Positions 1,426 through 26,986 of a stretch of DNA of 39,683 nt are shown piece by piece; positions within the stretch are counted from its first letter, which is position 1; every line of letters starts with the position of its first letter. Below the pieces are notes generated by a model. It was not told the DNA's origin and did no database searches. It saw nothing but the letters and a program-made list of their open reading frames with translations. The translations under genes and the position numbers were made by a program. This DNA comes from a virus, in IMG/VR virus record IMGVR_UViG_3300012964_000024, positions 1 through 39,683 of that record. One strand, written 5' to 3'.

Positions 1426-1512
1426 TTATTTACCTGCCTTGTAATGTTTATTAATTTCTTTCTCAAGGGTCTTGAGTTCCGCCAGATCGGCGGGGGTGAG
1501 TTTGTGGGTCAT
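1426..1512 (-). CDS. 28-residue truncated Ea22-like N-terminus
   Basis: This is an open frame of 28 codons beginning MTHKLTPADLAELK. It nearly copies the N-terminus of the neighbouring Ea22-like protein (MTSKLTPADLAELK) and then diverges to EKEINKHYKAGK and stops. Its ATG overlaps the TGA of the Ea22-like gene (ATGA), and its stop lies one base short of the phosphoesterase ATG, so it can be translated and could couple the two. It lies in the left copy of a direct repeat. It is either the scar of a duplication or recombination event, or a small peptide kept for coupling. Confidence 0.55.
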   Translation of the reverse strand: MTHKLTPADLAELKTLEKEINKHYKAGK

Positions 1513-1517
1513 GGCTT
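1470..1517. repeat. Direct repeat, left copy
   Basis: This 48-base direct repeat matches 2093-2140. The first 35 bases are identical, two bases differ, and the last 11 are identical. The copies bracket most of the Ea22-like gene, each covering an Ea22-type start region. Confidence 0.9.
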
Positions 1518-2135: not shown

Positions 2136-2140
2136 GGCTT
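2093..2140. repeat. Direct repeat, right copy
   Basis: This is the partner of 1470-1517. It contains the start codon and first 14 codons of the Ea22-like gene. Recombination between the two copies would delete the gene cleanly. Confidence 0.9.
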
Positions 2141-2305
2141 GTCTCCGTTCCACTCAATGACCGCAGTTCCGACCATCGCGAATATAACTGACACGAGACT
2201 AATGGCGGCGAACGCAGCCCCACCATCGGTGAGGAAATGCCCGAGCGTGCCGCTGGTGAATCCAAGTCCGAATGTTACGAGACCCCATCTATATGCGTTG
2301 TTCAT
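2132..2305 (-). CDS. Small membrane protein, 57 residues
   Basis: The ATG at 2305 follows a GGAG ribosome site. The product begins MNNAYRWGLVTFGLGFTSG and has two hydrophobic stretches (about residues 8-20 and 31-50) separated by a short loop, so it is probably a two-pass inner-membrane protein. The stop overlaps the Ea22-like ATG (ATGA). GC-rich codon use matches the imported cassette and not the phage backbone. No family recognised. Confidence 0.65.
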   Translation of the reverse strand: MNNAYRWGLVTFGLGFTSGTLGHFLTDGGAAFAAISLVSVIFAMVGTAVIEWNGDKP

Positions 2306-2624: not shown

Positions 2625-3308
2625 TCACTCTCCTGTAGAAATCACAGATGATGATAAAGTATTTTGGATATTAATCATGTATCTAACTATAGGATTAGCT
2701 GGACCTCCATTATATGCTGCTGCAAGAATCATAGGATCATTTGTATTAAGCACTTTAGACAACCACTGTAAATACTTTGCAGCATATTCAATATTAGTTT
2801 TAGGATTCCATAACTGCTCTTCAATAGACGGATGCTGTAACAATGATCCCCATGTCTGAGGACCAACAACTCCATCAATACGTAAATGGTGTGATGCTTG
2901 ATATCCTTTAATCACTAACATCAATGACACGTCAAATACACTAGATGGTCCTTCTGCATAGATGTAGCCTTTTTGAACCAGCATCTTCCGTATAGTTTCT
3001 ACAAGCGGTCCTTTTGAACCAAGCGCAACATACTGGAGTCTAGGAGACACATATGAGGTATCTCCAAAAGCATGCCTAATGGTGTCCGGCTTGATCTGGC
3101 ATACTCCAATCTCTCCATGCGCTCCCTTTACATTCTGTCCATGACTCTCATAAGTACAAATTGTAGCCAGAAGCCCTACAGGAAGTTTATACTGTTGTTC
3201 CAACATAGGAGCAAGGGATAAATAATCAGAAACATCTGATGCCATTGTAGGAAGGCACAGGCCCATTAATAGCAATAGCACCACACTTACTTGTTTGAAT
3301 AAATGCAC
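2625..3308 (-). CDS. Secreted lytic transglycosylase with inserted peptidoglycan-binding domain
   Basis: The protein has 227 residues from a GTG at 3308, chosen because GGAG lies 8-9 bases upstream. A signal peptide (residues 1-24, cleavage likely after TMA) implies Sec export. The goose-lysozyme/SLT-type catalytic region has YESHGQN with probable catalytic Glu54, then GEIGVCQIKP (65-74), and resumes at NPKTNIEYAAKYL and AAYNGG (198-203). Between these, residues about 97-158 form a PG_binding_1-like module (GPLVETIRKMLVQKGYI...IDGVVGPQTWGSLLQ). It should cleave murein glycan strands from the periplasm. The gene lies among replication genes, away from the holins, so it may be an exported endolysin or act in another stage. 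The start overlaps the primase end. Confidence 0.85.
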   Translation of the reverse strand: MHLFKQVSVVLLLLMGLCLPTMASDVSDYLSLAPMLEQQYKLPVGLLATICTYESHGQNVKGAHGEIGVCQIKPDTIRHAFGDTSYVSPRLQYVALGSKGPLVETIRKMLVQKGYIYAEGPSSVFDVSLMLVIKGYQASHHLRIDGVVGPQTWGSLLQHPSIEEQLWNPKTNIEYAAKYLQWLSKVLNTNDPMILAAAYNGGPANPIVRYMINIQNTLSSSVISTGE

Positions 3309-4102
3309 TGGTATATCTCCTCTTTGGACAAGTCTTTTGGATCTTTTAAATTTTCTATGAAGACTACTTTGACACGGAAAAATGGAGAAAGTTTCCTATG
3401 TAATTTAATAGTTGCCTCTCTTCCTGGAGTATCACCATCTAGCATAAGAACTATGCTAGTTAATCCCATCCTTGCTAATTGACTTAGACCATCATCTGAC
3501 AAATTAGTTCCCATTAGTGCCGCACAATACGCAACACCCGCCACTTTAATTGCAGATGTCTGGTCCTCCACCAGCACCAATTCCTCTGTAAATTTCTGAC
3601 CCAGAGGAAAATGAAGAACAGGGACGTTATTAAATTTTCTAAGAAGAACCTTAGGCTTTTCTGAATGAACTGCTTTAAAGTTTTCACCTATTAAATATCC
3701 TCTATAATCGAAGACTGGAAACTTAATCCGATTAATGTCTAGTGCATACACTATGCCCTGTTCTTCTAATTCCTGTTCTGATATATCGTACTTCCTAAAC
3801 TTATCTTCCCATAGGTCCTGTGGAATCTTTGTGATAACTCCAGAATATGCCTTGTCTTTAGGAGATAATGCTTTGGAAGATTTACCAACCACTGAAACAT
3901 TAGTTAGGCAATTGCCTGCTACTCCACACGATGCCCTATGGCAATTGAATTTTATCTCTCCTGTATTAAATAAAGAGATAACCATGCTCTGCTCATTACT
4001 TGTTCCTCCATTACATGCTGGACAGACAGCTCGCATACTAGTCTCTACTTGGAGGTCTTGCGATAGTTCCTGTATCTTTTGTATCAAAGACCCATTTTGC
4101 AT
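3287..4102 (-). CDS. DNA primase (zinc-finger + TOPRIM)
   Basis: The protein has 271 residues from the ATG at 4102 (GGAG 9 bases upstream), chosen over a GTG at 4117. The N-terminal zinc-binding motif has Cys27, Cys30, Cys54 and Cys59 (CPAC...CHRASC). The TOPRIM fold carries LVLVED with Glu179 and the metal-binding DGD at 222-224. This layout is that of T7-type primases without a fused helicase, so it should lay RNA primers on single-stranded phage DNA together with the helicase encoded further left. It overlaps the zinc-ribbon gene upstream by 65 bases and the transglycosylase downstream by 22. Confidence 0.88.
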   Translation of the reverse strand: MQNGSLIQKIQELSQDLQVETSMRAVCPACNGGTSNEQSMVISLFNTGEIKFNCHRASCGVAGNCLTNVSVVGKSSKALSPKDKAYSGVITKIPQDLWEDKFRKYDISEQELEEQGIVYALDINRIKFPVFDYRGYLIGENFKAVHSEKPKVLLRKFNNVPVLHFPLGQKFTEELVLVEDQTSAIKVAGVAYCAALMGTNLSDDGLSQLARMGLTSIVLMLDGDTPGREATIKLHRKLSPFFRVKVVFIENLKDPKDLSKEEIYQCIYSNK

Positions 4103-4226
4103 GACTATATACTCCACAAGATTTGCATATAATTACTTTAGCAGTAGAAGGGATAAGTAAAAAACTTCCACAGGAGCATTGCAATGTGTATCGTCTATCT
4201 AAACGATTGTATCTGAGTAAATACAT
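4038..4226 (-). CDS. Small zinc-ribbon protein, 62 residues
   Basis: The protein begins MYLLRYNRLDRRY and carries a CSC...CKSC zinc ribbon at about residues 17-37. Its ATG overlaps the stop of the upstream gene (TAATG), so it should be translationally coupled. Its last 65 bases overlap the primase start in another frame. It may be a split-off nucleic-acid-binding module helping the primase; that is inference from proximity. Function otherwise unknown. Confidence 0.6.
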   Translation of the reverse strand: MYLLRYNRLDRRYTLQCSCGSFLLIPSTAKVIICKSCGVYSHAKWVFDTKDTGTIARPPSRD

Positions 4227-4547: not shown

Positions 4548-4574
4548 TTAGACAATAGGTTATGTAAAAAGTTC
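4548..4574 (-). promoter_or_regulatory. Phage-specific promoter candidate, copy 3 (leftward)
   Basis: On the minus strand it reads GAACTTTTTA, 9 bases, TTGTCTAA, then TGTATTTT. The two blocks and the 9-base gap match the rightward copies at 16885-16911 and 16966-16992 exactly. It lies just after the stop of the 4577-4969 gene and ahead of the zinc-ribbon/primase genes. Confidence 0.65.
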
Positions 4575-4576
4575 AA

Positions 4577-6475: not shown

Positions 6476-7401
6476 TAGAATTCTCCACTGGTTGTTGAGA
6501 TACCTGCTTTAGGCAAATGTTTATTAATCGTAGTTAATATATCTTGCTCGCTACTTGAATTAATAAGTAATTTTGAAATTGAGTTTCGAGCAATCTGTTC
6601 ACATAATGTTAAATCAATGTCGGAATGTGTTAACGGAAAATAGGGCAAAATCTCAGACAAGATAACTGTATAAGGGCGAGTAAAAAAGAATTTATAAAAA
6701 TCAGCCTCAGAGTATTGTTTAACTGTTCTGAATAATGCTAAAACTACTTTTATCCATGAGTATAGAGTTTCAACATCATTAGTTCCATAATGATGCCTAA
6801 ATTCAATGCTTCCCTTTTCTCTTATACTTCGTACATTCATTGCCTCATACTTAGCACCACTACTAATTGAATTAATCACATCAGCTTCATTTATATTTTG
6901 CATAAAAAGGGAAGATAATCGCTTTATACCTGAGTTATTTTTATAATAAGGAATACAATAACTATTATTCTCTCTTCCATGACCAATGTAATTAAAGATA
7001 TATGGCTCTAAAGCCAAATAATACAGGATTAATGTACGCAATTGCAATAAATTTAAAAACCTAGTGTCACAATGAATATGTACTGACGTTCTTTCAGAAT
7101 AATCTGGATTAATATTATTATTTACAAAGACATTATTAAGTTCCTCTAATGCCGCTCTAATGTCTCCTCCTCGTAACATCACTGATACGAATTCAGTGCC
7201 ATAGTTTCTTAAACTTCCATCTGTGGTTACGTCCCAGTAGTTAAGTAAAATATTTAAATCCTCGTTAACTATCTGAATATTCTCAGCCTCGATTTCAATT
7301 CCCACGTATTTATCAGACATAGGAAGAGAATGATCTACCTGAAACTGTCTCGCATCTGGCCTGCGATTAAACAAATTACCTAACGGTTTATCTAATTTCA
7401 T
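6475..7401 (-). CDS. Amidoligase (Amidoligase_2 family)
   Basis: The protein has 308 residues with the family's glutamine-synthetase-fold signature: YVGIEIEAE (32-40), TTDGSLR (59-65), TEFVS (69-73), SVHIHCD (106-112), NNSYCIPYY (145-153) and GSIEFRHHYG (197-206). These enzymes are predicted to form amide bonds between a carboxylate and an amine using ATP. Its start overlaps the 435-residue gene by 14 bases and its stop overlaps the class II amidotransferase ATG, so all three are probably co-translated. The substrate is unknown. Family assignment is from motif recognition. Confidence 0.85.
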   Translation of the reverse strand: MKLDKPLGNLFNRRPDARQFQVDHSLPMSDKYVGIEIEAENIQIVNEDLNILLNYWDVTTDGSLRNYGTEFVSVMLRGGDIRAALEELNNVFVNNNINPDYSERTSVHIHCDTRFLNLLQLRTLILYYLALEPYIFNYIGHGRENNSYCIPYYKNNSGIKRLSSLFMQNINEADVINSISSGAKYEAMNVRSIREKGSIEFRHHYGTNDVETLYSWIKVVLALFRTVKQYSEADFYKFFFTRPYTVILSEILPYFPLTHSDIDLTLCEQIARNSISKLLINSSSEQDILTTINKHLPKAGISTTSGEF

Positions 7402-8695
7402 ACGGCACCATCTGAGACAACATATGTTTATGTGGACTAAAGGGTTGATAAACTTTTAAATATGATTCTGATTTATGTAATTCTCCTATACATTTGTCCA
7501 TGTATAATAGAAAATATTTATGAGTTTGTTTATGATTTCTTTTAACTAGGACAATCTCTGGAGTTAAAATGATAAATGAATCTTTATCCCCTAAACCTTG
7601 TTCTATAGTTTTATATTGACGTGTTAAGTAGTCTCGAACAATGTCCTGTGTAAACATTGATCGTGATAAATATTGCCCTTCAGTAGTTGAAAAGTCCAAC
7701 ATCATTCGGACATTATTCGGAGAGAGCGCTCGCAAATACGTACCTGGAACATACTCTGCATAAACAAGCCTGGCAGCAGTGCTAGTTATAACCCATCCTA
7801 ATGGAGAATTAAAAAATACATGCTTTTCTTCAGAATAGGGCTCTGTTATTGTTTTAGCAGATTTTCCCGGAATATATAACTCATACTGAATATGTACTCC
7901 ATTTATATCATTAATAAATCCTGTAACATAAAATATATGAGTATTTTTTATAACTCCATAACAGGAACGATATCTGATAGAAAGATTGTGTGCTACATCG
8001 TTCGCTGCGTGGGAACTAGGTCGTCTACGAAGATTATCAGTCTCTACAGAAAATGAATTAGTATTAGTTTCCTCATTTCTATTCAATCGAACCCTATATT
8101 GTGAACTAGGTACTACCTGAGAAGCTAACTCAATAGGTTCTGTGGAAATATACGTGCTGAAGTACTCGTTCACCAATCGGGCCATGATGGCCGCTAGAGC
8201 TTCTACTCTTATTCCAATAAGTGTATTACTTCCTCCATTATCTCTACTATAAACATTTGTATAATTAGAGATTACCCTATGTAATAAATATTTTTCTCCG
8301 TCTGCCAATAAGGGTGCTGTTAAAATTGAGATACTTATTTCATATTGATTTGATGCTGGAATATTTTGTTCTGATGTCAAACTATTATACATAGATAAGT
8401 ATTCCATGTATCCTGTTACTCCGATTACATCACCTAATGCCGCTCCACTAATCTGGATATTACACTCTATCATACATTGACGTATAGTACTATTTCTATC
8501 CCAATGAGCAAACTGGGACGGACTGGCATCTAGATAAGACCTACGTAATACCCAATATAAACAATCGAAGGGAATTGACTCGACGCCGCCCTCGACAGAT
8601 ATTTCTATAAGACGATTTCTGACATTAGGATCAGTAAATACATATTCCCATAAACGATTTGCTACTACAGTTTCATCAGGAGTAATAGGACGCAT
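7388..8695 (-). CDS. Unrecognised 435-residue protein of the amide-ligase cluster
   Basis: It starts at an ATG at 8695, two bases after the COOH-NH2 ligase stop, and overlaps the amidoligase by 14 bases, so it is embedded in the cluster. The N-terminal half is helical; the C-terminal half looks rich in beta strands (YGVIKNTHIFYVTGFIND, ILTPEIVLVKRNHKQTHKYF). No signal peptide or membrane segment is visible. I do not recognise a family. Its fixed position between two ligases suggests it is a scaffold, an acceptor substrate or a further enzyme of the pathway; this is inference from context only. Confidence 0.75.
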   Translation of the reverse strand: MRPITPDETVVANRLWEYVFTDPNVRNRLIEISVEGGVESIPFDCLYWVLRRSYLDASPSQFAHWDRNSTIRQCMIECNIQISGAALGDVIGVTGYMEYLSMYNSLTSEQNIPASNQYEISISILTAPLLADGEKYLLHRVISNYTNVYSRDNGGSNTLIGIRVEALAAIMARLVNEYFSTYISTEPIELASQVVPSSQYRVRLNRNEETNTNSFSVETDNLRRRPSSHAANDVAHNLSIRYRSCYGVIKNTHIFYVTGFINDINGVHIQYELYIPGKSAKTITEPYSEEKHVFFNSPLGWVITSTAARLVYAEYVPGTYLRALSPNNVRMMLDFSTTEGQYLSRSMFTQDIVRDYLTRQYKTIEQGLGDKDSFIILTPEIVLVKRNHKQTHKYFLLYMDKCIGELHKSESYLKVYQPFSPHKHMLSQMVPYEIR

Positions 8696-11925: not shown

Positions 11926-12010
11926 TGGTGCTCAAGGTCGGACTCGAACCGACACGCTAAAAAGCAACAGATTTTAAGTCTGTCATGTCTACCAATTCCA
12001 TCACAAGAGC
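11926..12010 (-). tRNA. tRNA-Leu(UAA)
   Basis: An 85-nt class II tRNA with encoded CCA. The minus strand starts GCTCTTGTGATGG. The anticodon stem ACAGA/TCTGT encloses the loop CTTAAAA, giving anticodon UAA. There is a 13-nt long variable arm, and the T arm is GTCGG-TTCGAGT-CCGAC. It aligns along its length with E. coli tRNA-Leu(UAA). Two U-U mismatches occur in the acceptor stem (positions 5-68 and 6-67). It would read UUA, a codon favoured by AT-rich phage genes. It lies within the leftward transcription unit between the amide-ligase cluster and small genes. Confidence 0.93.
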
Positions 12011-13095: not shown

Positions 13096-13722
13096 TTAGA
13101 ATGATACCTTAGTTTCAAACACATAAGCATCACTAGAAACAAATGGCAATCCGTCTTTATGGGAATCAATTTTAAAATAGCTTATTCCAAAGTCCAAATT
13201 GCCCACTCTATACCCAAGACCCAACATAGGTCTAACCTCAAGCTGAGTAGAATGTGTTTCTGTTCCTAGATAATTTCCGTCTATATCGGAAAATTCCACT
13301 TTCCACATTTGTTTATATACAAACAGTCCTACTTTTCCGTAAAGACTGCCAATAGGCAAGTAAGACTCTTTAGAAACAGAAAACAATCCTCCTGTAATAT
13401 TTCCATTTCCAATCAGTCTGTACAGATGCGATCCGTTGTGAGGATACCCATTATAGGTCGCATCAGCCTCAGCTACGCAAATTGTGTGTGCTTGTCCCAA
13501 AGAAACAAATTCTGCTTCATATCTTAGGTCATGCCTTTTAAAACTTACTCCCACACTAAGTGTACTAGCTTGTAAATCAAGAGAATAGGGGTATCCTTTT
13601 TGATAGTATATCCCATTTTGTGGCTTGGAGTAGTTTGTAATGCCTGTACCTATATCAAAATCAAGGGCTAGAGCATTATAACTGCAAAACAACAAGAAAA
13701 CTGCAAGCATTAGATTACGCAT
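13096..13722 (-). CDS. Phage-encoded outer-membrane beta-barrel protein
   Basis: The protein has 208 residues from an ATG at 13722 (GAGGAGG upstream). A signal peptide, MRNLMLAVFLLFCSYNALA, is followed by amphipathic strands alternating with short turns (FDIGTGITNY, LSVGVSFKRHDLRYEAEF, YGKVGLFVYKQMWKVEF, RPMLGLGYRVGNLDFGISYF). The last strand ends VFETKVSF. A C-terminal Phe with alternating hydrophobics is the signal recognised by the BAM machinery. It should fold into the host outer membrane as a barrel of about 8 strands, as Lom-type or OmpW-like proteins do. Possible roles are superinfection exclusion or surface remodelling; those are inferences. Confidence 0.78.
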   Translation of the reverse strand: MRNLMLAVFLLFCSYNALALDFDIGTGITNYSKPQNGIYYQKGYPYSLDLQASTLSVGVSFKRHDLRYEAEFVSLGQAHTICVAEADATYNGYPHNGSHLYRLIGNGNITGGLFSVSKESYLPIGSLYGKVGLFVYKQMWKVEFSDIDGNYLGTETHSTQLEVRPMLGLGYRVGNLDFGISYFKIDSHKDGLPFVSSDAYVFETKVSF

Positions 13723-13740
13723 AATTCCTCCTCAGCTTGC

Positions 13741-14106
13741 AATAGCACACATTCAGAGTATAACTCACTAGCTTCTGCTAGTTTGCCGGTATCGTCTAGG
13801 CATTTAAGACCCAGCCCAATACATTAAATGTGGCTGTCACTCCCCGGCGCGGCCTTAGCATCCCCTCGCTACTGTGCTACTGCACAAGATTCAGAAGCCA
13901 TTTTATCTAGCTTCCTTAATTACCTGTTTTAACAGGGTTCGGGGTTCCAGTCACTTTTTCAAGCTCTGGTTAGATATGTAGCAGGTCTAAGATAACTATC
14001 GAAACATTATCTATAACTTTTTCGGAACATTGCGTCCTAGCCGCTATATCTTTTTGCGTATGCCGTGGTTATTTCGTAAATACTCGGTATTTTGTCCCTG
14101 CAAAAA
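13741..14106 (-). ncRNA. Structured non-coding block with hairpin array
   Basis: About 370 bases lack a credible gene. They contain five consecutive perfect hairpins: CTAGC/GCTAG (13768-13781), CAGCC/GGCTG with nested ACAT/ATGT (13812-13836), TGTGC/GCACA (13873-13886), GAAGC/GCTTC (13894-13914) and CCTGTT/AACAGG (13923-13936). A GCAGG/CCTGC pair closes 13981-14101. The block is visibly less AT-rich than nearby genes. A TTGACT-N17-TATAGT promoter upstream would transcribe it leftward, as a separate RNA or as the leader of the outer-membrane protein gene. No known RNA family recognised. Confidence 0.45.
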
Positions 14107-14122
14107 CTTAATCTAGATTAAC
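14107..14122. promoter_or_regulatory. TTAATC palindrome, site 4
   Basis: It reads CTTAATCTAGATTAAC; the 14-bp core is identical to sites 1 and 3. On the minus strand it is followed by GTTTTT, so in RNA it could also act as a weak hairpin-plus-U-run terminator. Confidence 0.65.
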
Positions 14123-14191
14123 TAAATTAAATCTTTGGACAGACTGCGCCCCGCGACCGCTCACCACAACCGGAGTCCGGCGCATATAAAT

Positions 14192-14220
14192 ACTATAACA
14201 TATATATCCCCTGAAGTCAA
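14192..14220 (-). promoter_or_regulatory. Sigma70-type promoter
   Basis: On the minus strand: TTGACT, 17-base spacer, TATAGT. It is placed directly after the stop of the 35-residue gene. Transcription would start near 14185, run through a GCGCC/GGCGC stem (14146-14183) and palindrome 4, then into the structured block and the outer-membrane protein gene. Confidence 0.7.
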
Positions 14221-14232
14221 GGGACATAGATT

Positions 14233-14340
14233 TTATAGTGATCTATTAGTAATAGCTTTTACAATCCACACCGTGCCCACTAAAACAAATGCTAGCCATG
14301 TTGCAAAATCTATACATAAGTTTATCGTATGTTGATCCAT
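14233..14340 (-). CDS. Tiny membrane protein, 35 residues
   Basis: The product is MDQHTINLCIDFATWLAFVL followed by VGTVWIVKAITNRSL, one hydrophobic helix of about 20 residues. The ATG at 14340 lies inside the 3' end of the preceding gene, a 19-base overlap, so translation is probably coupled; its own ribosome site is weak. No family recognised. Confidence 0.48.
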   Translation of the reverse strand: MDQHTINLCIDFATWLAFVLVGTVWIVKAITNRSL

Positions 14341-14432
14341 TCGGTTACCCAATCAATAATTTTGCCAATAAGAAAAATACCCCCACAAATTACAAATGTG
14401 TAGGCTAAATTCAAAAAATCATTATGTGACAT
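14322..14432 (-). CDS. Tiny membrane protein, 36 residues
   Basis: The ATG at 14432 follows a strong GAGGAGG ribosome site. The product begins MSHNDFLNLAYTFVICGGIF and ends KIIDWVTEWINIR: one transmembrane helix and an amphipathic tail. It is the middle member of a run of small leftward genes. Function unknown. Confidence 0.6.
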   Translation of the reverse strand: MSHNDFLNLAYTFVICGGIFLIGKIIDWVTEWINIR

Positions 14433-14441
14433 ATTTCCTCC

Positions 14442-14633
14442 TCATAGATTATATAGTGTGGTCATCTTAACGTTTCCACAGTCCATCAAATGCTCATTAT
14501 TCCACTCAACAGCCATGACCCATTCTAGAAAACATGGAGATACAATTGCGTCATTTCCTTTGGAATCTTTACCAAAGACAATGTAAAAAATTGGTGCTTT
14601 CTCATCATCATAGAACGGCACTTTGATTCCCAT
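14442..14633 (-). CDS. Hypothetical protein, 63 residues
   Basis: The ATG at 14633 follows AGGAG with an 8-base spacer. The product begins MGIKVPFYDDEKAPIFYIVF and continues GKDSKGNDAIVSPCFLEWVM. It is soluble-looking and probably a small mixed alpha/beta fold. It sits 9 bases ahead of the next tiny gene in the same unit. No family recognised. Confidence 0.6.
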   Translation of the reverse strand: MGIKVPFYDDEKAPIFYIVFGKDSKGNDAIVSPCFLEWVMAVEWNNEHLMDCGNVKMTTLYNL

Positions 14634-14792
14634 AAAATTCTCCTGTTAAGGCGATTCGGGACTGGCTGGCCGGATAGCTAATCCGTTTAACCCATTACTT
14701 TGCCCAAGTAACGTATTTGCAGGCACCACGAGCCAGTCCTTCCTCGACAAGCCAGTTTTAGGAACGGAGCCGAAACCCTTGCTTGCGAGACT
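14634..14792 (-). ncRNA. Structured leader with two alternative pairings
   Basis: This gene-free block has ACTGGCT (14661-14667), which can pair with either of two AGCCAGT copies (14731-14737 within a 9-bp match, and 14750-14756). An internal hairpin TTACTT/AAGTAA lies at 14695-14711. It precedes the ribosome site of the 63-residue gene. The mutually exclusive pairings resemble an attenuator or riboswitch expression platform, but no known family is recognised. A weak TTAATC-like site lies at 14678-14690. Confidence 0.35.
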
Positions 14793-14972
14793 TTAATGCT
14801 TTGTATCAGTGATCGTTAGAGCTTCGATCAATTCCACTTTGATCCCCTGATTTCTCCAGTACAGAATCTCAGTTTCTACCTGAGTCCTGTCCGAATCATC
14901 ATAGTACACCATAGTCGGCTTAGGCATTGATGGCCCAGCATACACTTTAAGGACGAATACAGGCATAAGCAT
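14793..14972 (-). CDS. Hypothetical protein, 59 residues
   Basis: The ATG at 14972 follows an AGGAGG ribosome site 4 bases upstream. The product has MLMPVFVLKVYAGPSMPKPT, then YYDDSDRTQVETEILYWRNQ and GIKVELIEAL. It looks like a small soluble alpha/beta protein. It is the first gene downstream of the hammerhead ribozyme, so its mRNA would be cut 5' of it, about 200 bases upstream of the start codon. No family recognised. Confidence 0.62.
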   Translation of the reverse strand: MLMPVFVLKVYAGPSMPKPTMVYYDDSDRTQVETEILYWRNQGIKVELIEALTITDTKH

Positions 14973-14991
14973 ATATCCTCCTGATGATACA

Positions 14992-15006
14992 TTAAACTAC
15001 GTTTAA
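14992..15006. promoter_or_regulatory. Second palindrome type TTAAAC-TAC-GTTTAA
   Basis: A perfect dyad with 6-base arms around 3 bases, 20 bases upstream of the ATG at 14972, next to a degenerate TTAATC-type site at 15012-15025. Possible operator or RNA hairpin. Confidence 0.35.
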
Positions 15007-15055
15007 CACATCTAATCTAAATTAAGTGTCGGTTACGCACTTCCGACGAGCTTTA

Positions 15056-15082
15056 TTTATAGCCTCTCGACCAAGCTATAAA
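15056..15082 (-). other. 8-bp stem-loop in the ribozyme downstream fragment
   Basis: Inverted repeat TTTATAGC/GCTATAAA with an 11-base loop. A second stem GTCGG/CCGAC lies just downstream on the minus strand. Together they make the stretch between the hammerhead and the next gene highly structured. Confidence 0.45.
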
Positions 15083-15168
15083 ATCGTGGGCATACACCTA
15101 TCGGGTCGCCGCTCGCTAAGTGTCTCCATGTGCCGTGTCGAGTGCTAGCACAAGTTAATGCCCTGCTC

Positions 15169-15227
15169 CGCGTTTACGCCAGGAATATTCCCCTAGCGTT
15201 TCGGCCCTATGGCCTCATCAGAACGCG
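15169..15227 (-). ncRNA. Type I hammerhead self-cleaving ribozyme
   Basis: Minus-strand RNA in order: stem I CGCGUU; invariant CUGAUGA (15215-15221); stem II GGCC-AUAG-GGCC; invariant GAAA (15199-15202); stem III CGCUAGG with loop GGAAUAUU and CCUGGCG (one U-G pair); then U-A and stem I AACGCG. The A of GAAA pairs with the U before the cleavage base, as required. Predicted cleavage follows the A complementary to 15175. All invariant core bases are present. The open stem is stem I, making it type I. It starts 6 bases after the stop of the 58-residue gene and would split the leftward transcript between two small genes. Confidence 0.93.
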
Positions 15228-15232
15228 ACTTC

Positions 15233-15409
15233 TTAAGGAATTACTATCACCGCATACAGAAAGGCAATAATAACCCCGATAGCGATTGTTGATCCTACTG
15301 TGACAATCGCAATGTCAAGAAAGATTTCAAACAATGATTGGTCCGGCGTAGTATCCGCCACAGTCTGCCTCGCGGCCTCTACAGTCTTGTGTAGCTGTTT
15401 GATTCTCAT
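15233..15409 (-). CDS. Small membrane protein, 58 residues
   Basis: The ATG at 15409 follows a GGAGG ribosome site. The product starts MRIKQLHKTVEAARQTVADT (soluble helix) and continues with a long hydrophobic helix (IAIVTVGSTIAIGVIIAFLY), giving an N-in or N-out single-pass protein. A TTAATC palindrome lies 20 bases upstream, and the hammerhead follows the stop. Unknown function; probably an early membrane protein. Confidence 0.62.
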   Translation of the reverse strand: MRIKQLHKTVEAARQTVADTTPDQSLFEIFLDIAIVTVGSTIAIGVIIAFLYAVIVIP

Positions 15410-15428
15410 TTTCCCTCCACAGATAAAA

Positions 15429-15443
15429 GTTAATCGGATTAAC
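15429..15443. promoter_or_regulatory. TTAATC palindrome, site 5
   Basis: GTTAATCGGATTAAC, arms separated by one base. It lies 20 bases upstream of the ATG at 15409. A TTGACA hexamer (15493-15498) and weak -10-like sequences (around 15459-15475) lie further upstream. Confidence 0.65.
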
Positions 15444-15538
15444 TATTTCCTTACTTCTAGTATGACAATAGCTTAACACATAACAATAACTATGTCAAGT
15501 CATGTCTACTTTTAATAACCCTATAATCTAAGGCTCTT

Positions 15539-15565
15539 AAAAGTATCCCCTCTTACGAGGGGATA
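15539..15565 (-). terminator. Rho-independent terminator (leftward)
   Basis: A perfect 9-bp stem, TATCCCCTC/GAGGGGATA, with a 4-base loop (15544-15565), followed on the minus strand by ACTTTTAA. It lies 22 bases after the stop of the 208-residue gene and should end that unit. Confidence 0.75.
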
Positions 15566-15587
15566 AGGGCAGGTAATCTTAGCTAAC

Positions 15588-16214
15588 TTACTGACTTACT
15601 GCACGAATCTGCGCGGCTTCCAGAGCTTCCGCATCGGTCATGCTTTCATTGTCCGACACATCGACTTTCGGCTCATACTTTGAAATGATCTCTTCCTGTA
15701 CTTCGGTAGGAAGCTTCGCAACCCGATCTAGCAGATCATTAAATAATACTTCCGTGACAGACTTGGCGCGCTGTATCTCCACATCAACACCATTCTCCCC
15801 TCCCTCGCCCTGCTCCATTGACTTCTTGGGGCTTTTGCGGGCCTTGACTGCCTGAGTCTTAAGCTCTTTGTACTGACTGTAGGACTCAGAATCATTTGGG
15901 ATAAGCCCAAAATCCTCCCATCCACGCAGAATCACAGATTTAGCATTGCTCCAAGCACCTGGCAAACGAACATAAGCTTGCCGTTCCTTCTTGGCCATGC
16001 CGGCATTCGCTGCCTTTTCCGTAAGGCGGGTCTTGCGAGCACTTTCTGCAGCAGCGCATCCGGACTCAAACTGATCAGCACTTGTGCATCCCTGAGCCAG
16101 AATAAAGAGATGTTGCGCTACTGATTCCTGTTTACCGCTGATTACCTTCTGTGCATTGTCCGCCTCAGCGAGCACGGAGTTAAAGGTAATTTCCTGCTTC
16201 TTTTCCTGTGTCAT
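15588..16214 (-). CDS. Hypothetical early protein, 208 residues
   Basis: It starts at an ATG at 16214. The protein is helical and charged: VLAEADNAQKVISGKQES, AESARKTRLTEKAANAGMAK, KERQAYVRLPGAWSNAKSVI, then a basic linker (KARKSPKKS) and an acidic C-terminus. It is alone between a good sigma70-type promoter (16321-16349) and a terminator, so it is probably expressed early and strongly. A TTAATC site lies in its leader. Less AT-rich than the neighbouring small genes. No domain recognised. Confidence 0.72.
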   Translation of the reverse strand: MTQEKKQEITFNSVLAEADNAQKVISGKQESVAQHLFILAQGCTSADQFESGCAAAESARKTRLTEKAANAGMAKKERQAYVRLPGAWSNAKSVILRGWEDFGLIPNDSESYSQYKELKTQAVKARKSPKKSMEQGEGGENGVDVEIQRAKSVTEVLFNDLLDRVAKLPTEVQEEIISKYEPKVDVSDNESMTDAEALEAAQIRAVSQ

Positions 16215-16240
16215 GGTTAAACCCTCGTAATTGACAGACT

Positions 16241-16267
16241 AGCTCAGTATGAGCTAATCCGATTAAG
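16241..16267. promoter_or_regulatory. TTAATC palindrome, site 6, with adjoining hairpin
   Basis: CTAATCCGATTAAG (16254-16267) adjoins the inverted repeat AGCTCA/TGAGCT (16241-16255). Both lie in the leader between the promoter at 16321-16349 and the ATG at 16214. Confidence 0.55.
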
Positions 16268-16320
16268 TGGATTTAGCCAATCAACCTGCCCAAATTGTAA
16301 AAGAACGTATTACAGGGATT

Positions 16321-16349
16321 ACTATAAACCTAATCTTTATCTGTGTCAA
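16321..16349 (-). promoter_or_regulatory. Consensus sigma70 promoter
   Basis: Minus strand TTGACA, 17-base spacer, TATAGT. It overlaps the last codons of the 31-residue gene. It should drive the 208-residue gene and would be read by host RNA polymerase. Confidence 0.8.
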
Positions 16350-16425
16350 GCATTGATGCAATCACCCTAACAACAATCGCCAAGATGATTACAATCAACA
16401 TCAGAGCACGAAAAAGGTAATTCAT
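16330..16425 (-). CDS. Tiny membrane protein, 31 residues
   Basis: The product is MNYLFRALMLIVIILAIVVR followed by VIASMLDTDKD, almost entirely one transmembrane helix with a short charged tail. The ATG at 16425 follows AAGGTG. A promoter for the next gene is embedded in its 3' end. Function unknown. Confidence 0.58.
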   Translation of the reverse strand: MNYLFRALMLIVIILAIVVRVIASMLDTDKD

Positions 16426-16478
16426 AGTATCACCTTGAGTACATTGTTTCACAGTGTTTGCATTGTGTCACGCGTAAT

Positions 16479-16492
16479 CTAATCCGATTAAG
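16479..16492. promoter_or_regulatory. TTAATC palindrome, site 7
   Basis: CTAATCCGATTAAG, identical to the core of site 6. On the minus strand it lies about 10 bases downstream of an extended -10 (TGG-TATAAA, 16502-16510). Confidence 0.6.
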
Positions 16493-16501
16493 CTAAATGT
16501 T

Positions 16502-16510
16502 TTTATACCA
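16502..16510 (-). promoter_or_regulatory. Extended -10 promoter element
   Basis: Minus strand TGG-TATAAA without a convincing -35. It would transcribe through site 7 toward the 31-residue gene. Confidence 0.4.
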
Positions 16511-16554
16511 GGATTAATAAGATTAATGATATAGTGCTTCTCACGCGCGCGCGT

Positions 16555-16583
16555 ATTATAAGGAATAGCAATTAGTGTGCCAG
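16555..16583 (-). promoter_or_regulatory. Sigma70-like promoter
   Basis: Minus strand CTGGCA, 17-base spacer, perfect TATAAT. It lies upstream of the extended -10 at 16502-16510 and would drive the same leftward unit. Confidence 0.5.
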
Positions 16584-16807
16584 GTAGTGTGATCTGATTA
16601 GACTAATATAGTGTGACCGACTTTAAATCATCCTATCCCACTATAAATAATTCTTATAGAAAATCTTAGCCACCCCCCGAGGGGAAATTTAGGAATGTCA
16701 TATTGATTAGTACCTTACATTCGACGGTTATATAAATTTCTAAGGTCCAAAAAGGGCTAAAATTAGAAAACTCGTGGCAAACTTTACCCAAAACTATTAC
16801 CTAAATA

Positions 16808-16823
16808 CTTAATCTAGATTAAC
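16808..16823. promoter_or_regulatory. TTAATC palindrome, site 8
   Basis: CTTAATCTAGATTAAC, the same 16 bases as site 4. On the minus strand it begins 4 bases downstream of the extended -10 at 16828-16836, so it would cover the transcription start. Confidence 0.68.
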
Positions 16824-16827
16824 TTTT

Positions 16828-16836
16828 ACTATACCA
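16828..16836 (-). promoter_or_regulatory. Extended -10 promoter element
   Basis: Minus strand TGG-TATAGT. No good -35 at the usual distance; a TTGACA occurs only 8 bases upstream. It is the rightmost leftward promoter candidate. Confidence 0.5.
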
Positions 16837-16884
16837 AACCTTGTCAAGCCCCCTAAATGAAATAAATATTTTTACTTTCATAGG

Positions 16885-16911
16885 GAACTTTTTATGATTC
16901 TTGTTGTCTAA
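16885..16911 (+). promoter_or_regulatory. Phage-specific promoter candidate, copy 1 (rightward)
   Basis: GAACTTTTTA, 9 bases, TTGTCTAA, then GTA. It is 81 bases upstream of copy 2, in front of the late operon. Confidence 0.65.
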
Positions 16912-16965
16912 GTACTAGTAAGATTACGATTTACAACATCTCTAAAATATATTTTTTATTTTGCG

Positions 16966-16992
16966 GAACTTTTCCTGTTTTTAGTTGTCTAA
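16966..16992 (+). promoter_or_regulatory. Phage-specific promoter candidate, copy 2 (rightward)
   Basis: GAACTTTTCC, 9 bases, TTGTCTAA, then GTATAT. It is followed by an AT-rich leader of about 125 bases to the protease ATG. Confidence 0.65.
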
Positions 16993-17019
16993 GTATATTT
17001 TAAATATAATTATTACTTA

Positions 17020-17035
17020 GTTTCCTAAAGGAAAC
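17020..17035 (+). other. Leader hairpin GTTTCC-TAAA-GGAAAC
   Basis: A perfect 6-bp stem with a TAAA loop, about 30 bases after copy 2. The 12-base core TTCCTAAAGGAA recurs at 24755-24766 just before a structural gene start, where it contains the ribosome site. Confidence 0.45.
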
Positions 17036-17119
17036 AATATAAATAGATAAATAATAATTATAAATAAAACTATAATATACTTATAAAATCTTTTTTTCTT
17101 CTGAGGTATATTCTTTTTT

Positions 17120-17830
17120 ATGCGAAAGATATTATTCTTGGTTGGTTTACTCGCCCTATTGGGCGGAACTATTCTGTATAAATTAGATTATACCTCTGCT
17201 CCTGTTATGCAGGAGCGTAATCTTATGAGCACTGTATATGTGCTCAATGTAGTCTCTCCGTCTGCACAGGGAGAAATGCAGCCGGTATCTCATGGTTCTG
17301 GAGTTGTTGTGCAACTCCGTAATGGTCACGTCTATCTCGTGACCGCTTATCATGTAGTTGATGATCTTAAGGATCATCCAGAGTATGTACTGCTGATCTC
17401 TCGATCAGCGTTTGAAGTTAAAGGAGATCGTGCAACTATAGTGGTTGTTGATCCTCTGCACGATCTTGCTATTGTTGAAGTCCAATCTTTGCCTGCCGCT
17501 AAGGCGGCGTATATTTGCACATTGACACCAGAGGTCTTTGACCGGGTGGTGGCAATAGGGTCTCCTGGACCCTTGCACGTTTCTCCTGCGGAGGGCATCA
17601 TCTCTGATACTGATGCCCTTTTTCCCACGTTACTGAATAATATGAACTTTCCAATGATTCAGCATACAGCCACTATCAGTGGCGGAGATTCAGGTGGTGG
17701 TCTATTTAAGTATGAAAATGGTGGATGGTGTTTGCAGGGAATCAATACTCAAGCCATTGGGGACCATCCATCTATCAATTTCGCTGTAGGGGTGCAATAT
17801 CTGCTACCCCTGTTACACAGCATCAAGTAA
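17120..17830 (+). CDS. HtrA/trypsin-like serine protease, membrane-anchored
   Basis: The protein has 236 residues. An N-terminal hydrophobic anchor or signal (residues 3-20) is followed by an S1-type fold with the full triad: His78 (VTAYHVVDD), Asp115 (DPLHDLAIVE) and Ser191 (SGGDSGGGLF). The sequence is closest in style to HtrA/DegP proteases without a PDZ domain. It is the first gene of the late operon. The start at 17120 has a distant ribosome site. An internal ATG at 17225 (Met36) has AGGAG at a good distance and would give a soluble form starting right at the protease domain. Possible roles are capsid or scaffold maturation, or cleavage of host envelope proteins. Confidence 0.83.
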   Translation: MRKILFLVGLLALLGGTILYKLDYTSAPVMQERNLMSTVYVLNVVSPSAQGEMQPVSHGSGVVVQLRNGHVYLVTAYHVVDDLKDHPEYVLLISRSAFEVKGDRATIVVVDPLHDLAIVEVQSLPAAKAAYICTLTPEVFDRVVAIGSPGPLHVSPAEGIISDTDALFPTLLNNMNFPMIQHTATISGGDSGGGLFKYENGGWCLQGINTQAIGDHPSINFAVGVQYLLPLLHSIK

Positions 17831-18168: not shown

Positions 18169-18401
18169 TGCCAATTGAATATACCCCTGCTAATATTACT
18201 CCCTCAGTTAATATTCCTGATGCTACAAAGCCACCTAAGAAAGATGATGCTCCGGTTAAAAAGAAACCTACAGGTAAGCCGGGAGAGACAATGCCCGGCC
18301 AATCTGATAAAGCTAATGATCCTATTAGGGGAACAGAGCGAGGCAAATATGGAATGGATGATGTAGAGCATGATGCTAATACTGGAGATATTGAACGATA
18401 A
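18168..18401 (+). CDS. Small Pro/Lys-rich protein with RGTERGKYG motif
   Basis: The protein has 77 residues. The N-terminal part is Pro-rich (IEYTPANITPSVNIPDATKP) and the middle is Lys/Pro-rich (PKKDDAPVKKKPTGKPGE), so it is likely disordered. The C-terminal PIRGTERGKYGMDDVEHDAN repeats the motif of the preceding protein. It is coupled to both neighbours by TAATG overlaps. No family recognised; it could bind a common partner. Confidence 0.65.
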   Translation: MPIEYTPANITPSVNIPDATKPPKKDDAPVKKKPTGKPGETMPGQSDKANDPIRGTERGKYGMDDVEHDANTGDIER

Positions 18402-18874
18402 TGGCTAAAGGTAAGGCTTGGGATATGGATACCCGTATTCAAGCTGCCATTGCTTGGCTTATTACGGGAGATTCAGAAGAGGCTGGAAGGCTTTGTAATA
18501 TTCCTGGACGTACTGTACGTCTATGGATGCAGCAACCTTGGTGGGAAGAAGTTCTTGCTGAAGCTCGTACAATTAAACAAAAGGAGTTAGATGCTTTATG
18601 GACAGGTCTGATTCACAAGTCTACGACAGCCCTGAGGGAACGCTTGGATCAGGGAGACGCGATTCTGAGCAAGACTGGAGAAGTAAGGTACTTGCCAGTA
18701 AAAGCGAAGGATATCGCAATCATAATGAGTATCGCAATCGACAAGCGAGCACTTCTTCGCAACCAGCCAACTTCGCGGGTGGAAAAAATTACGGTAGAGG
18801 AAAAACTGGATCGTATCGGAAACAAATTGGCCGAATTGGATCAGCCAGAGGTCGATGACGAACAGATTCATTAA
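18401..18874 (+). CDS. Terminase small subunit
   Basis: The protein has 157 residues. The N-terminal helix-turn-helix (IQAAIAWLITGDSEEAGRLCNIPGRTVRLW, about residues 13-42) should bind the packaging site. Helical oligomerisation segments (KQKELDALWTGLIHKSTTAL, KDIAIIMSIAIDKRALL) and an acidic tail follow. The layout and the position two genes before the large terminase support the call. Its TAA overlaps the ATG of a tiny membrane protein. Confidence 0.82.
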   Translation: MAKGKAWDMDTRIQAAIAWLITGDSEEAGRLCNIPGRTVRLWMQQPWWEEVLAEARTIKQKELDALWTGLIHKSTTALRERLDQGDAILSKTGEVRYLPVKAKDIAIIMSIAIDKRALLRNQPTSRVEKITVEEKLDRIGNKLAELDQPEVDDEQIH

Positions 18875-18978
18875 TGAACGGGCTTGGTTTGTTTTCAATA
18901 ACTACTTTTGTTTGGCTTGTTTTAAAAGTCTGTTGGTGGACTTATAAATGGGGATTAATTCCTGATGAAGACGAGTAA
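18874..18978 (+). CDS. Tiny membrane protein between the terminase genes, 34 residues
   Basis: The product begins MNGLGLFSITTFVWLVLKVC and ends WGLIPDEDE: one transmembrane helix with a Trp-rich boundary and an acidic tail. The ATG overlaps the small-terminase stop (TAATG), and its end overlaps the large-terminase start by 14 bases, so it fills an otherwise unexplained gap exactly. Function unknown; it may mainly couple translation. Confidence 0.58.
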   Translation: MNGLGLFSITTFVWLVLKVCWWTYKWGLIPDEDE

Positions 18979-20413
18979 GAAGATTGCTTCATTTGTAAAA
19001 CTCTTTCTTCTTCATAGATTTGATTCTCCTGTGGAAACTCCTGCATTTCATAGAGAAATGTGGGAGATTGCTACATCTGGATCACGCCGTATAGCTTTTG
19101 CGGCTCCACGAGCACATGCTAAAAGTACTGCTATTACTTTAGCATTGACTTTATTCTTATTCTTATTTCGTATTCGTAGATATGGATTTATAGTTTCAGA
19201 TACAGAAGCTCAGGCTTCTCAGTTCCTTGGTGACATCAAATCAGAGTTAATTGAGAACCAAGAACTAAAAGAAACCTTTGGCATCAAACGTATTATTAAA
19301 GATGCCATCACAGATATTATTGTGGAGTGTAATGATGGTTATCAGTTTCGCATTCAGGCGCTCGGTGCGGAACAGAAAGTCCGTGGAAGAAAGTGGAAGA
19401 ACTACCGTCCAGATTTTGTGGTTTGCGATGATCTGGAGAATGACGAGATGGTGGAAAGTGAAACTCGTCGTGAGAAGTTTCGTAATTGGTTCTTCAAAGC
19501 ATTAGTTCCAGCCTTATCTAAACATGGGCAGATAGTAGTTGTAGGCACTATTCTTCATATGGATTCAGTATTAATGCGTCTATTAAAGAATAAGACTTGG
19601 ACTACTAAGTTATATAAAGCCCATCACGGGTTTGATGATTTTTCTGATCTTCTTTGGCCTTCTCAGTGGACGGAAGAAGACTTAAAAGAGAAGAGACAAG
19701 AATTTATTGATGATGGATATCCTGAAGGTTATTCTCAGGAATATCTTAATGATCCTTTATCCCATAGTGAGGCTTTCTTTAAGCATGAAGACTTTCTTGC
19801 TATAGAAGATGAAATGTGGGATTTACCTGTAACTAACTATGCTGCGGTTGACTTTGCTATCTCTGATGCAGATAAATCAGCATATACAGTAATAGCAGTA
19901 GGGGGAATGGATTCCTTTGGCAGACTTCAACTTCGCAAGATTGTTCGTATGCGAGGAGACGGTAATGAAATTCTCGATGCAATCTTTGAAGTACAAAAGA
20001 TTTGGAATATCGAGATGTGGAAAATGGAACAAGGACAGATTAAGCAGACTCTTCAAAGTGAAATGTATCTGCGAATGAATAAGACTGGAGTTTTTTTAAA
20101 TATCAGTTCTGGAGTTCCTACTAAAGATAAGCGTTCTCGTGCTAGAGCTATTCAGGCACGCATGAGGGCTGGTGGTGTATACTTTGACAAAGATGCAGAA
20201 TGGTATTCTACTTTTGAAGAAGAAATGCTCCAGTTTCCAAAAGGACAATATAAAGATCAGGTAGATGCTTTTGCATGGCTTGGTATTTGTATAAATGAAT
20301 TACATGAAGGACCAACTCTTGACGATGCAGAAGAGGATGAGTATTGGCAGGAGATGGAGCAGTATAGAAATGAGTCTATGTATATGGACCGTAATAGTGT
20401 AACTGGTTATTAA
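18965..20413 (+). CDS. Terminase large subunit
   Basis: The protein has 482 residues. The ATPase domain has a Walker A variant APRAHAKST (47-55), where the usual Gly residues are Ala, and Walker B FVVCDDLEND (151-160). VVVGTILHMDS (190-201) is in the motif III/C position. The RNase H-like nuclease domain has NYAAVDFAISDADKSAY, with a candidate metal-binding Asp at 296, and DQVDAFAWLGI near the C-terminus. It drives DNA packaging through the portal and cuts the DNA. The start overlaps the tiny membrane gene. Confidence 0.92.
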   Translation: MKTSKKIASFVKLFLLHRFDSPVETPAFHREMWEIATSGSRRIAFAAPRAHAKSTAITLALTLFLFLFRIRRYGFIVSDTEAQASQFLGDIKSELIENQELKETFGIKRIIKDAITDIIVECNDGYQFRIQALGAEQKVRGRKWKNYRPDFVVCDDLENDEMVESETRREKFRNWFFKALVPALSKHGQIVVVGTILHMDSVLMRLLKNKTWTTKLYKAHHGFDDFSDLLWPSQWTEEDLKEKRQEFIDDGYPEGYSQEYLNDPLSHSEAFFKHEDFLAIEDEMWDLPVTNYAAVDFAISDADKSAYTVIAVGGMDSFGRLQLRKIVRMRGDGNEILDAIFEVQKIWNIEMWKMEQGQIKQTLQSEMYLRMNKTGVFLNISSGVPTKDKRSRARAIQARMRAGGVYFDKDAEWYSTFEEEMLQFPKGQYKDQVDAFAWLGICINELHEGPTLDDAEEDEYWQEMEQYRNESMYMDRNSVTGY

Positions 20414-23432: not shown

Positions 23433-24288
23433 ACTTACTGAAGAGCCTGAAACTAAGGCTACTGAAGTAGAGGAAAAAGAAAATAATGAAGATTCCCAAA
23501 GCGAAACACATGATGAAAGCTTTGAAGAAACAGAGGAGTCTGTCGCTAGATCGAAGGGCTGGGTTCCCAAGGAAGAATACAAAGGCAACAAGGAAGAGTG
23601 GATTGATGCGAAGGAATTTGTCGCACGAGGTCCGCTCTATGATGCCATCCACCAAGCCAACCGTAAAATCAAGAAGCTCACTGAGACCGTGGAATCCTTT
23701 AAAGAACACTATTCCAAAGTAGAGAATACTGCTAAGCAGAAAGCTATTGAACAGCTTCGTGCAGAACTAAAAGCAGCTTCGGAAGATCGTGATATTGAAC
23801 GTGCTTTGGAAGTAAAGGATAAGATTACTGAATTAACACAAGAAGTAAAAACAGAAGCAAAAGAATCTGACAATGTTGTAGCTCCTGAATTTGAAACTTG
23901 GGTAGAAAAAAATCAGTGGTATGAAACTGATAAAGTTCTTAGACATGCTGCTAATGGTATTGGCTTTGAACTTCAAAAAGAACATCCTGATTGGTCTCCT
24001 AAGAAAATTTATACAGAAGTTGAGAGTCAGATAAAAGAAGCTTTTCCTCAGAAGTTTAATCAGGAACCAGAACGAAAAATGACTACCTCAGTTACTACTA
24101 GTACTAAGCGTACTACTCCTACTAAGAAAGGCAGTAAGACTCCTTCTGCTAAACAGTTACCAGATGATGCTAAAGTAAATTATCGTCGTCTTGTTAAATC
24201 AGATCGTAACCCTAGCGGGCTTTTAACCCATGAGCAGTTTATGAAAGACTATCTTGCCACAGGTGGCACCTTAATCGAGGAAGAATAA
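23419..24288 (+). CDS. Probable scaffolding protein
   Basis: The protein has 289 residues. It has a very acidic, probably disordered N-terminus (EEPETKATEVEEKENNEDSQ). SKGWVPKEEYKGNKEEWIDA and a coiled-coil centre follow (KIKKLTETVESFKEHYSKVE, RAELKAASEDRDIERALEVK). The C-terminus is basic with a Thr/Lys-rich linker (TTSTKRTTPTKKGSKTPSAK). Position just before the capsid genes, the coiled coil and the basic tail fit a prohead scaffold. The upstream serine protease could degrade it; that is speculative. Confidence 0.75.
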   Translation: MPVIKLTEEPETKATEVEEKENNEDSQSETHDESFEETEESVARSKGWVPKEEYKGNKEEWIDAKEFVARGPLYDAIHQANRKIKKLTETVESFKEHYSKVENTAKQKAIEQLRAELKAASEDRDIERALEVKDKITELTQEVKTEAKESDNVVAPEFETWVEKNQWYETDKVLRHAANGIGFELQKEHPDWSPKKIYTEVESQIKEAFPQKFNQEPERKMTTSVTTSTKRTTPTKKGSKTPSAKQLPDDAKVNYRRLVKSDRNPSGLLTHEQFMKDYLATGGTLIEEE

Positions 24289-26374: not shown

Positions 26375-26986
26375 ATGGCAACTTATCCTACTCGTCCGGA
26401 CCTTCTGGTACTTAAGTCTCAGAATCCGACTACTGGCAAGAAATTCAGCCTGATCTTTGATGATCTTGGCTCTCAGATTTTTATTCCCCCGAGTGAGTTT
26501 ATGTATATTGGTGGCACTTGGACTGCCACTCGCGCTGCTCAGGGTGATGTGTATATGGCAAAAACTGCTGCGGCAAATACTACTTATCTGGTCGCATCTC
26601 TGCGTAGTCTTTATAAGACTACTATGCAAAACAATGCAATGTATAATCCTACGCAGGTTGCAGACCGTGGTGCGAAGATTAAGTCCGTAGATATAGTTTA
26701 TAGTATTGGTACTCTAGCCCTTACTTCTCAAGCTGCTACCTTCAATAAAGTAGCATATGCAAATAATGTGGCTAATGCTGTTACAGCCCATGGCGGGTCT
26801 GTGACAGGAACTCTTGCTACGGCAACTCAGGCTAATCCCTATGTCTCTACTCTGACTCTTGGTACTCAGGGATTTGATATGACCTCAGATGCAGATATTC
26901 GTATTGAAATCGCAGTTGTTGCTCAGGCTACTTCAGTCTATAACTTCTATGGAATGTTTGTTAATCTAGATCAGAACAGTCTGTAA
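26375..26986 (+). CDS. Virion structural protein, 203 residues
   Basis: It starts at an ATG at 26375 after the intercistronic hairpins. It begins MATYPTRPDLLVLKSQNPTT and contains YIGGTWTATRAAQGDVYMAK. The remainder is Ala/Thr/Val-rich with a beta pattern and ends FYGMFVNLDQNSL. Its composition resembles the decoration-type protein before the capsid gene. It is probably a second head or neck component; family not named. Confidence 0.62.
   Translation: MATYPTRPDLLVLKSQNPTTGKKFSLIFDDLGSQIFIPPSEFMYIGGTWTATRAAQGDVYMAKTAAANTTYLVASLRSLYKTTMQNNAMYNPTQVADRGAKIKSVDIVYSIGTLALTSQAATFNKVAYANNVANAVTAHGGSVTGTLATATQANPYVSTLTLGTQGFDMTSDADIRIEIAVVAQATSVYNFYGMFVNLDQNSL

Follow-up and report, generated by a model that had tools for sequence, protein, structure and literature searches.

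Phages are known to rewire host transcription with sigma factors, anti-sigma factors or polymerases that they encode themselves. In phiEco32 and SU10, middle and late promoters are served by the phage ECF sigma factor gp36, and the phiEco32 motif is tAATGTATAtA (PMC4281155). A transcription protein carried by the particle also has a precedent in phage N4, whose virion RNA polymerase is injected (extract of PMC4496689). On the bacterial side, sigma-E promoters of gamma-proteobacteria such as those of micA and rybB have the -35 element GGAACTTTT and the -10 element GTCAAA (extract of PMC1804206), and the RpoE -35 element is given as GGAACTT in extracts of PMC8103513 and PMC12153292.

Here we analyzed a stretch of viral DNA of 39,683 nucleotides (IMG/VR record IMGVR_UViG_3300012964_000024), which as a whole is called the window. 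A sequence-only reading had singled out two rightward copies of a bipartite motif, GAACTTTT-N2-N9-TTGTCTAA-GTA, 81 bases apart at 16885 and 16966. Both copies were confirmed, 5' of the rightward gene block that starts at 17120, and with the G just before included each is 28 bases of the form GGAACTT-N15-GTCTAA. A scan of the whole window found this form without mismatch at just these two places. With at most one mismatch there were four matches, all with a spacer of 15 bases and none at spacers of 12-14 or 16-19:

16884-16911, + strand: predicted late promoter P1, sigma-E class; -35 GGAACTT at 16884-16890, 15-base spacer, -10 GTCTAA at 16906-16911
16965-16992, + strand: predicted late promoter P2, sigma-E class; -35 GGAACTT at 16965-16971, 15-base spacer, -10 GTCTAA at 16987-16992
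4548-4575, - strand: third site, TGAACTT-N15-GTCTAA, one mismatch; in the gap upstream of a zinc-ribbon/primase gene group
3484-3511, - strand: fourth site, GGAACTA-N15-GTCTAA, one mismatch; within the primase gene, 176 bases ahead of a transglycosylase gene

Permuted motifs searched in the window under the same limit of one mismatch gave a mean of 0.077 matches and a maximum of 1 (n = 400). The strict form exceeds chance, and the loose form (at most three mismatches) is chance-like, with 17 matches against 13.4 expected, so that meaning rests in the strict form only.

The conserved blocks GGAACTT(TTT) and GTCTAA are the -35 and -10 elements of sigma-E promoters, a consensus that is gamma-proteobacterial and may not be that of the host. 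By the sigma-E/ECF02 definition, the -35 element GGAACTT is exact in both copies, and GTCTAA stands at 15 bases in both, where GTCNAA is expected at about 15-16. GTCTAA is a common -10 reading among ECF group 2 promoters, as the T variant of GTC(A/T)AA. Compared with the gamma-proteobacterial promoters, those described here are phage-borne, stand ahead of late and replication operons, and match the consensus perfectly. The promoter class is very probably sigma-E (RpoE, ECF group 2) and conserved. Transcription from P1 would be expected to start at about 16918-16920 and that from P2 at about 16999-17001.

The sequence-only reading had instead likened the motif to the element recognized by the phiEco32 sigma factor, in keeping with a phiEco32-like ligase cluster. 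Ligase genes of that kind are indeed present in the window, and the phiEco32 sigma is likewise of the ECF class and serves late phage genes. The sequence nevertheless contradicts a promoter of that type that depends on a gp36-like sigma of the phage. The motif is unlike tAATGTATAtA; within the window TAATGTATA is confined to 25749 and 30335, as many copies as chance would give, and is absent from P1 and P2; and a search for phrog_1740, the phiEco32 sigma family, which did find phiEco32, gave no match in the window (about 39.7 kb, incomplete), six IMG/VR relatives or two named relatives. Unlike phiEco32, which encodes its own sigma, the window and its relatives G001 and QDWS535, introduced below, gave no sigma match. 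Ligase presence does not track the motif either: as a correlate it seemed perfect in nine genomes and broke down in a larger set, where several relatives have ligases without the site (G021, G022, G028, G029, G031 and G034) and others have sites without ligases by the search used (G013, G014 and G015). What stands of the earlier proposal is a bipartite, non-sigma70 promoter pair of an ECF sigma class ahead of the late operon; to the phiEco32-type promoter we assign almost no probability.

A near-identity search of a phage collection gave no match to the window. Relatives were found through its large terminase, and the genes used in the comparison are the following:

18401-18874, + strand: small terminase, first conserved gene of the late operon; an HTH protein conserved in relatives, named from its position and HTH
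18965-20413, + strand: large terminase, the query for finding relatives
3287-4117, - strand: DNA primase (phrog_47, 7.3e-26), downstream of the site at 4575

These relatives comprise IMG/VR contigs, the cultured Alcaligenes faecalis phage vB_Af_QDWS535 (QDWS535) and an uncultured phage from Manatee Spring. The nearest large terminase is that of G001 (68 percent), which looks complete because one gene spans its two ends; that of QDWS535 stands at about 41 percent. The site (at most one mismatch, spacer 15 or 16) was present in 14 of 39 phage records, namely 12 of 36 records with the window among them, plus C244 and G138; the 39th, a 16.8-kb fragment (G139), has none. Sites stand ahead of the late operon or of replication genes, and the cultured Alcaligenes phage is among the carriers. 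Sites with a 15-base spacer number 4 in the window, 4 in G001 and 5 in G006, against 0.07-0.09 for permuted motifs. The matches with at most one mismatch in three relatives are:

G001: 7196 (+), 38093 (-), 42621 (-) and 45508 (-)
G006: 10479 (+), 11261 (+), 14052 (+), 16029 (+) and 45849 (-)
QDWS535: 48814 (+) and 31447 (-, spacer 16)

Each of these three has one sense site upstream of its terminase genes, and in QDWS535 a perfect site lies 45 bases ahead of the small terminase gene. The primase group is preceded by sites in the window, in G001 (45508, -) and in G006 (10479, +). Across the 14 records, 24 of 36 sites fall outside open reading frames of at least 70 aa, though such frames cover 0.86-0.96 of each record. 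When the late intergenic region at 16215-17119 was compared with its G001 counterpart (6697-7676), the best ungapped pair of 40-mers was the P2 promoter, with 30 of 40 positions identical; the 99.99th percentile of all such pairs is 24. Conservation also reaches beyond the search pattern, as the three bases after GGAACTT are T in 15, 13 and 12 of 19 compared sites, and GTCTAA is followed by T or G in 18 of the 19. Mapped on a 38-terminase tree, the site requires eight changes or more and clusters loosely (11 of 500 shuffles were as low), and was therefore gained or lost many times.

A tandem pair would also suit a non-promoter element, for instance one bound by a repressor or a packaging protein, that resembles sigma-E sites. 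We consider this very improbable, given that the sites are directional, stand ahead of several operons, and have conserved boxes but not a conserved spacer between them. Specifically, 33 of the 36 sites in the 14 records point into a sense gene; the remaining three, counted as misses, face short open reading frames (one in G006, two in G014) that we think are spurious.

Four records also have sigma-E-type sites close to the 3' end of a long gene on the replication side, which encodes 592-667 aa (the DNA polymerase in G001); the distance from site to following gene is 87-108 bases. These sites are predicted internal promoters:

G001: 38066-38093
G010: 26771-26798
G015: 31989-32016
G018: 23867-23894

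A further reading is that P1 and P2 are ordinary sigma70 promoters and the motif a by-product of an AT-rich intergenic region. Weak sigma70-like matches (9 of 12 positions of TTGACA-17-TATAAT) do lie near P1 and P2. Yet the lack of a good sigma70 site noted earlier held up: at a threshold of 11 of 12, no sense site was found in the 3 kb before the large terminase gene (TerL) of the window. The sole strong site of the intergenic region points leftward, away from the late operon, and would serve the early genes:

16321-16349, - strand: sigma70-type promoter, TTGACA-17-TATAGT, 11 of 12
15588-16214, - strand: leading gene of the leftward (early) block, running divergently from the late promoters; blastp match (8e-7) to the G006 gene in the corresponding position, and no match to a known family

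Leftward sigma70-type sites occupy the same divergent region in QDWS535 (12 of 12), G001 and G006 (10 of 12 each). Among relatives, a late-sense sigma70 site of at least 11 of 12 within 3 kb upstream of TerL was present in 11 of 23 phages lacking the site and in 1 of 13 carrying it (Fisher p 0.025; shuffles 0.7 per group). This count omits G138 and G007, under a minimum of 1200 upstream bases, and also G139, which the set of 38 terminases does not include. The single exception among carriers is G001, with a perfect sense sigma70 site near 7059, and this too could be held in favor of sigma70. Still, 12 of 13 carriers lack such a site and the probability of the motif arising by chance is very low, so we judge ordinary sigma70 promoters highly unlikely. 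A matrix search for a variant motif in the relatives without the site gave nothing convincing.

Which factor would read the sites is a separate question. No sigma-like gene, for which the sequence-only reading had suggested a search, was recognizable in the window. Searches with Pfam Sigma70_r4_2 and r2 (PF08281 and PF04542), phrog_1740 and a six-frame RpoE profile gave no match in the window, G001, G006 or QDWS535, and their positive controls (phiEco32 or bacterial) matched. Since no such gene was found in the complete G001 and QDWS535 either, host sigma-E would be the likeliest reader. This is further favored by the host of QDWS535, Alcaligenes, which we take to belong to Burkholderiales, an order in which RpoE was present in all 28 genomes tested.

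Host genomes themselves gave few counterparts. The pattern GAACTTN15-16GTCTAA was present in 5 of 100 Burkholderiales genomes, far below the reversed control, and at six places in all, two of them in G095, one of these on a phage contig. This suggests that the sigma-E regulon of the host may not rest on the exact consensus, which counts against host RpoE as the reader. Upstream of the 28 host rpoE genes the best match had at least three mismatches in every case, little above controls. In six of the 28 the best match (3-4 mismatches, e.g., TGAACTT-N16-GTCTTT) lay within 160 bases of the rpoE match, with about three expected by position, a weak signal.

We propose that P1 and P2 are tandem sigma-E-class promoters that would drive the late operon, with further copies serving the replication genes. 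Early genes would start from the leftward sigma70 promoters, and later the host RNA polymerase with host sigma-E would read P1 and P2; the leftward sigma70-type sites at the early genes suggest this order, sigma70 first and a sigma-E-type factor afterwards. That P1 and P2 are late promoters read by host sigma-E is our best guess, held with moderate confidence. Observed here are the motif match, more copies than chance would give, conserved sequence and placement in relatives, and the lack of a recognizable sigma gene in the window and two complete relatives; the role of P1 and P2 as transcription starts is predicted from them.

The same promoters could instead be read by an ECF sigma of the phage itself, encoded in an unsequenced part, too diverged for our searches, or carried in the virion. 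The window is short of perhaps 10 kb of genome, where a sigma gene could hide, and the motif is stricter than the host promoters. Moreover, an RpoE-like domain, embedded in a giant late protein, occurs together with the sites in three phages of a sister branch (G014, C244 and G138). The domain was located as follows:

C244, L313, 8299-8895: RpoE-like ECF sigma domain
G014, L225, 12282-12857: RpoE-like ECF sigma domain
G138, L316: RpoE-like ECF sigma domain
G139, L317: RpoE-like ECF sigma domain

C244, a MAG contig, is phage contig JAGWIG010000017, found by its terminase and bearing the same site sequence; its domain matches TIGR02939 (4.2e-29, below the cut-off of the model) inside an open frame of 1954 aa. 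In G014, G138 and G139 the domain exceeds the Pfam cut-off inside frames of 1371, 1966 and 2205 aa, respectively (PF08281, 8.5e-19 in G014 and 5.1e-16 in G138). Thus 3 of the 59 records examined carry it, C244 being outside the 59. The calls come from the TIGR02939 and PF08281 searches, and in G014 also from an RpoE profile in which some of the underlying reading frames were wrong. Over regions 2 and 4, the C244 domain can be aligned with host RpoE at 35-36 percent identity (two host proteins), and it is 26 percent identical to that of G014; a second RpoE profile included the two phage domains, which makes their scores there circular. G014 has seven sites and C244 and G138 one each, and G139 has none despite its domain.

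The giant protein is encoded toward the end of the structural gene block, as is the window's 1211-aa protein. It may be part of the virion and injected, and its embedded domain may be a virion-carried sigma factor. The parallel with N4 is partial, as the sister branch has a sigma domain rather than a polymerase and its presence in the particle is deduced. Against a phage sigma in the window itself, no sigma domain was found in its giant protein (34803-38438), nor did the rest of the window, the complete G001 or QDWS535 give a sigma match. A phage-borne reader is the main rival, though the less likely one for the window, and host sigma-E is retained as the preferred reader.

Adjoining the late promoter of G001, we also observed a 159-aa protein with an N-terminal HTH that is weakly similar to RpoE (L024, 6217-6696, -). 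It was rejected as a sigma region 2 candidate: the blastp match is weak (1e-5), no phage relative and no family above cut-off was found, and its low-confidence fold (pLDDT 56) had no structural match.

The first gene behind P1 and P2 bears on the sigma-E pathway:

17120-17830, + strand: membrane-anchored HtrA/DegS-type serine protease, 236 aa, Pfam Trypsin_2 1.7e-16

The protein has a hydrophobic helix at residues 4-22 followed by a Trypsin_2 domain with the triad H78, D115 and S191, and its best PDB matches are MucD (4.5e-9) and DegS (5.5e-9). With DegS, the site-1 protease of the sigma-E pathway, it shares the N-terminal membrane anchor and the trypsin-like domain with an H-D-S triad. It differs in being phage-encoded, in having GGDSGG around the serine and in lacking a PDZ domain: Pfam gave no PDZ match, and the chain stops at residue 236, past the protease domain, apparently where the PDZ domain of DegS would begin. 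A single-sequence fold (pLDDT 36) was useless beyond the N-terminal helix. According to extracts of the respective papers, the PDZ domain keeps the DegS protease in check (PMC8103513) and a DegS variant without PDZ and with H198P is more active (PMC8508112). By analogy, the phage protease could release host sigma-E, and, placed behind sigma-E promoters, could feed forward. No relatives of the protease were found in viral contigs, and Trypsin_2 occurs in 1 of 34 related records, the window only. The feed-forward idea therefore has no support from conservation and the gene is at most a local addition. A full takeover of envelope stress as a late switch, in which host sigma-E would read the operon, the PDZ-less DegS would cut the anti-sigma factor RseA and so free further sigma-E in a feed-forward loop, and sister phages would carry an RpoE-like sigma in a giant virion protein, perhaps injected along with the DNA, is speculative and in our view improbable.

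Several other features of the window were recorded. An early-strand protein at 13096-13722 (-) carries a signal peptide, shows alternating strands and ends in ...KVSF, and looks like a small outer-membrane barrel, a reading for which databases gave no support; the C-termini of outer-membrane proteins activate DegS. The adjacent 13723-15587, about 1.9 kb, has almost no open reading frame of at least 60 aa and no Rfam match. A GC-rich island at 1501-2500 (0.54-0.55, against about 0.36-0.40 around it) is probably a recent arrival, and its open reading frame at 1509-2153 (-) has no relatives among nine phages compared. The early block also holds a tRNA gene:

11926-12010, - strand: tRNA-Leu (taa)

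In a literature search over titles and the starts of abstracts, we found no paper on a phage using host sigma-E for its own genes, nor one on a sigma domain inside a virion protein. The late genes of these phages seem to be run by a stress-type transcription factor and not the usual one, as judged from their promoters. A test of this pattern is already feasible, since the cultured Alcaligenes phage QDWS535, a relative, has the same promoter. The occurrence of sigma70 promoters in some sister phages and sigma-E promoters in others at the same operon points to promoter-class switching in evolution. If the proposed reading is true, a late programme placed on a host stress sigma would couple the making of virions to damage of the envelope, and rpoE would become a host factor for infection.
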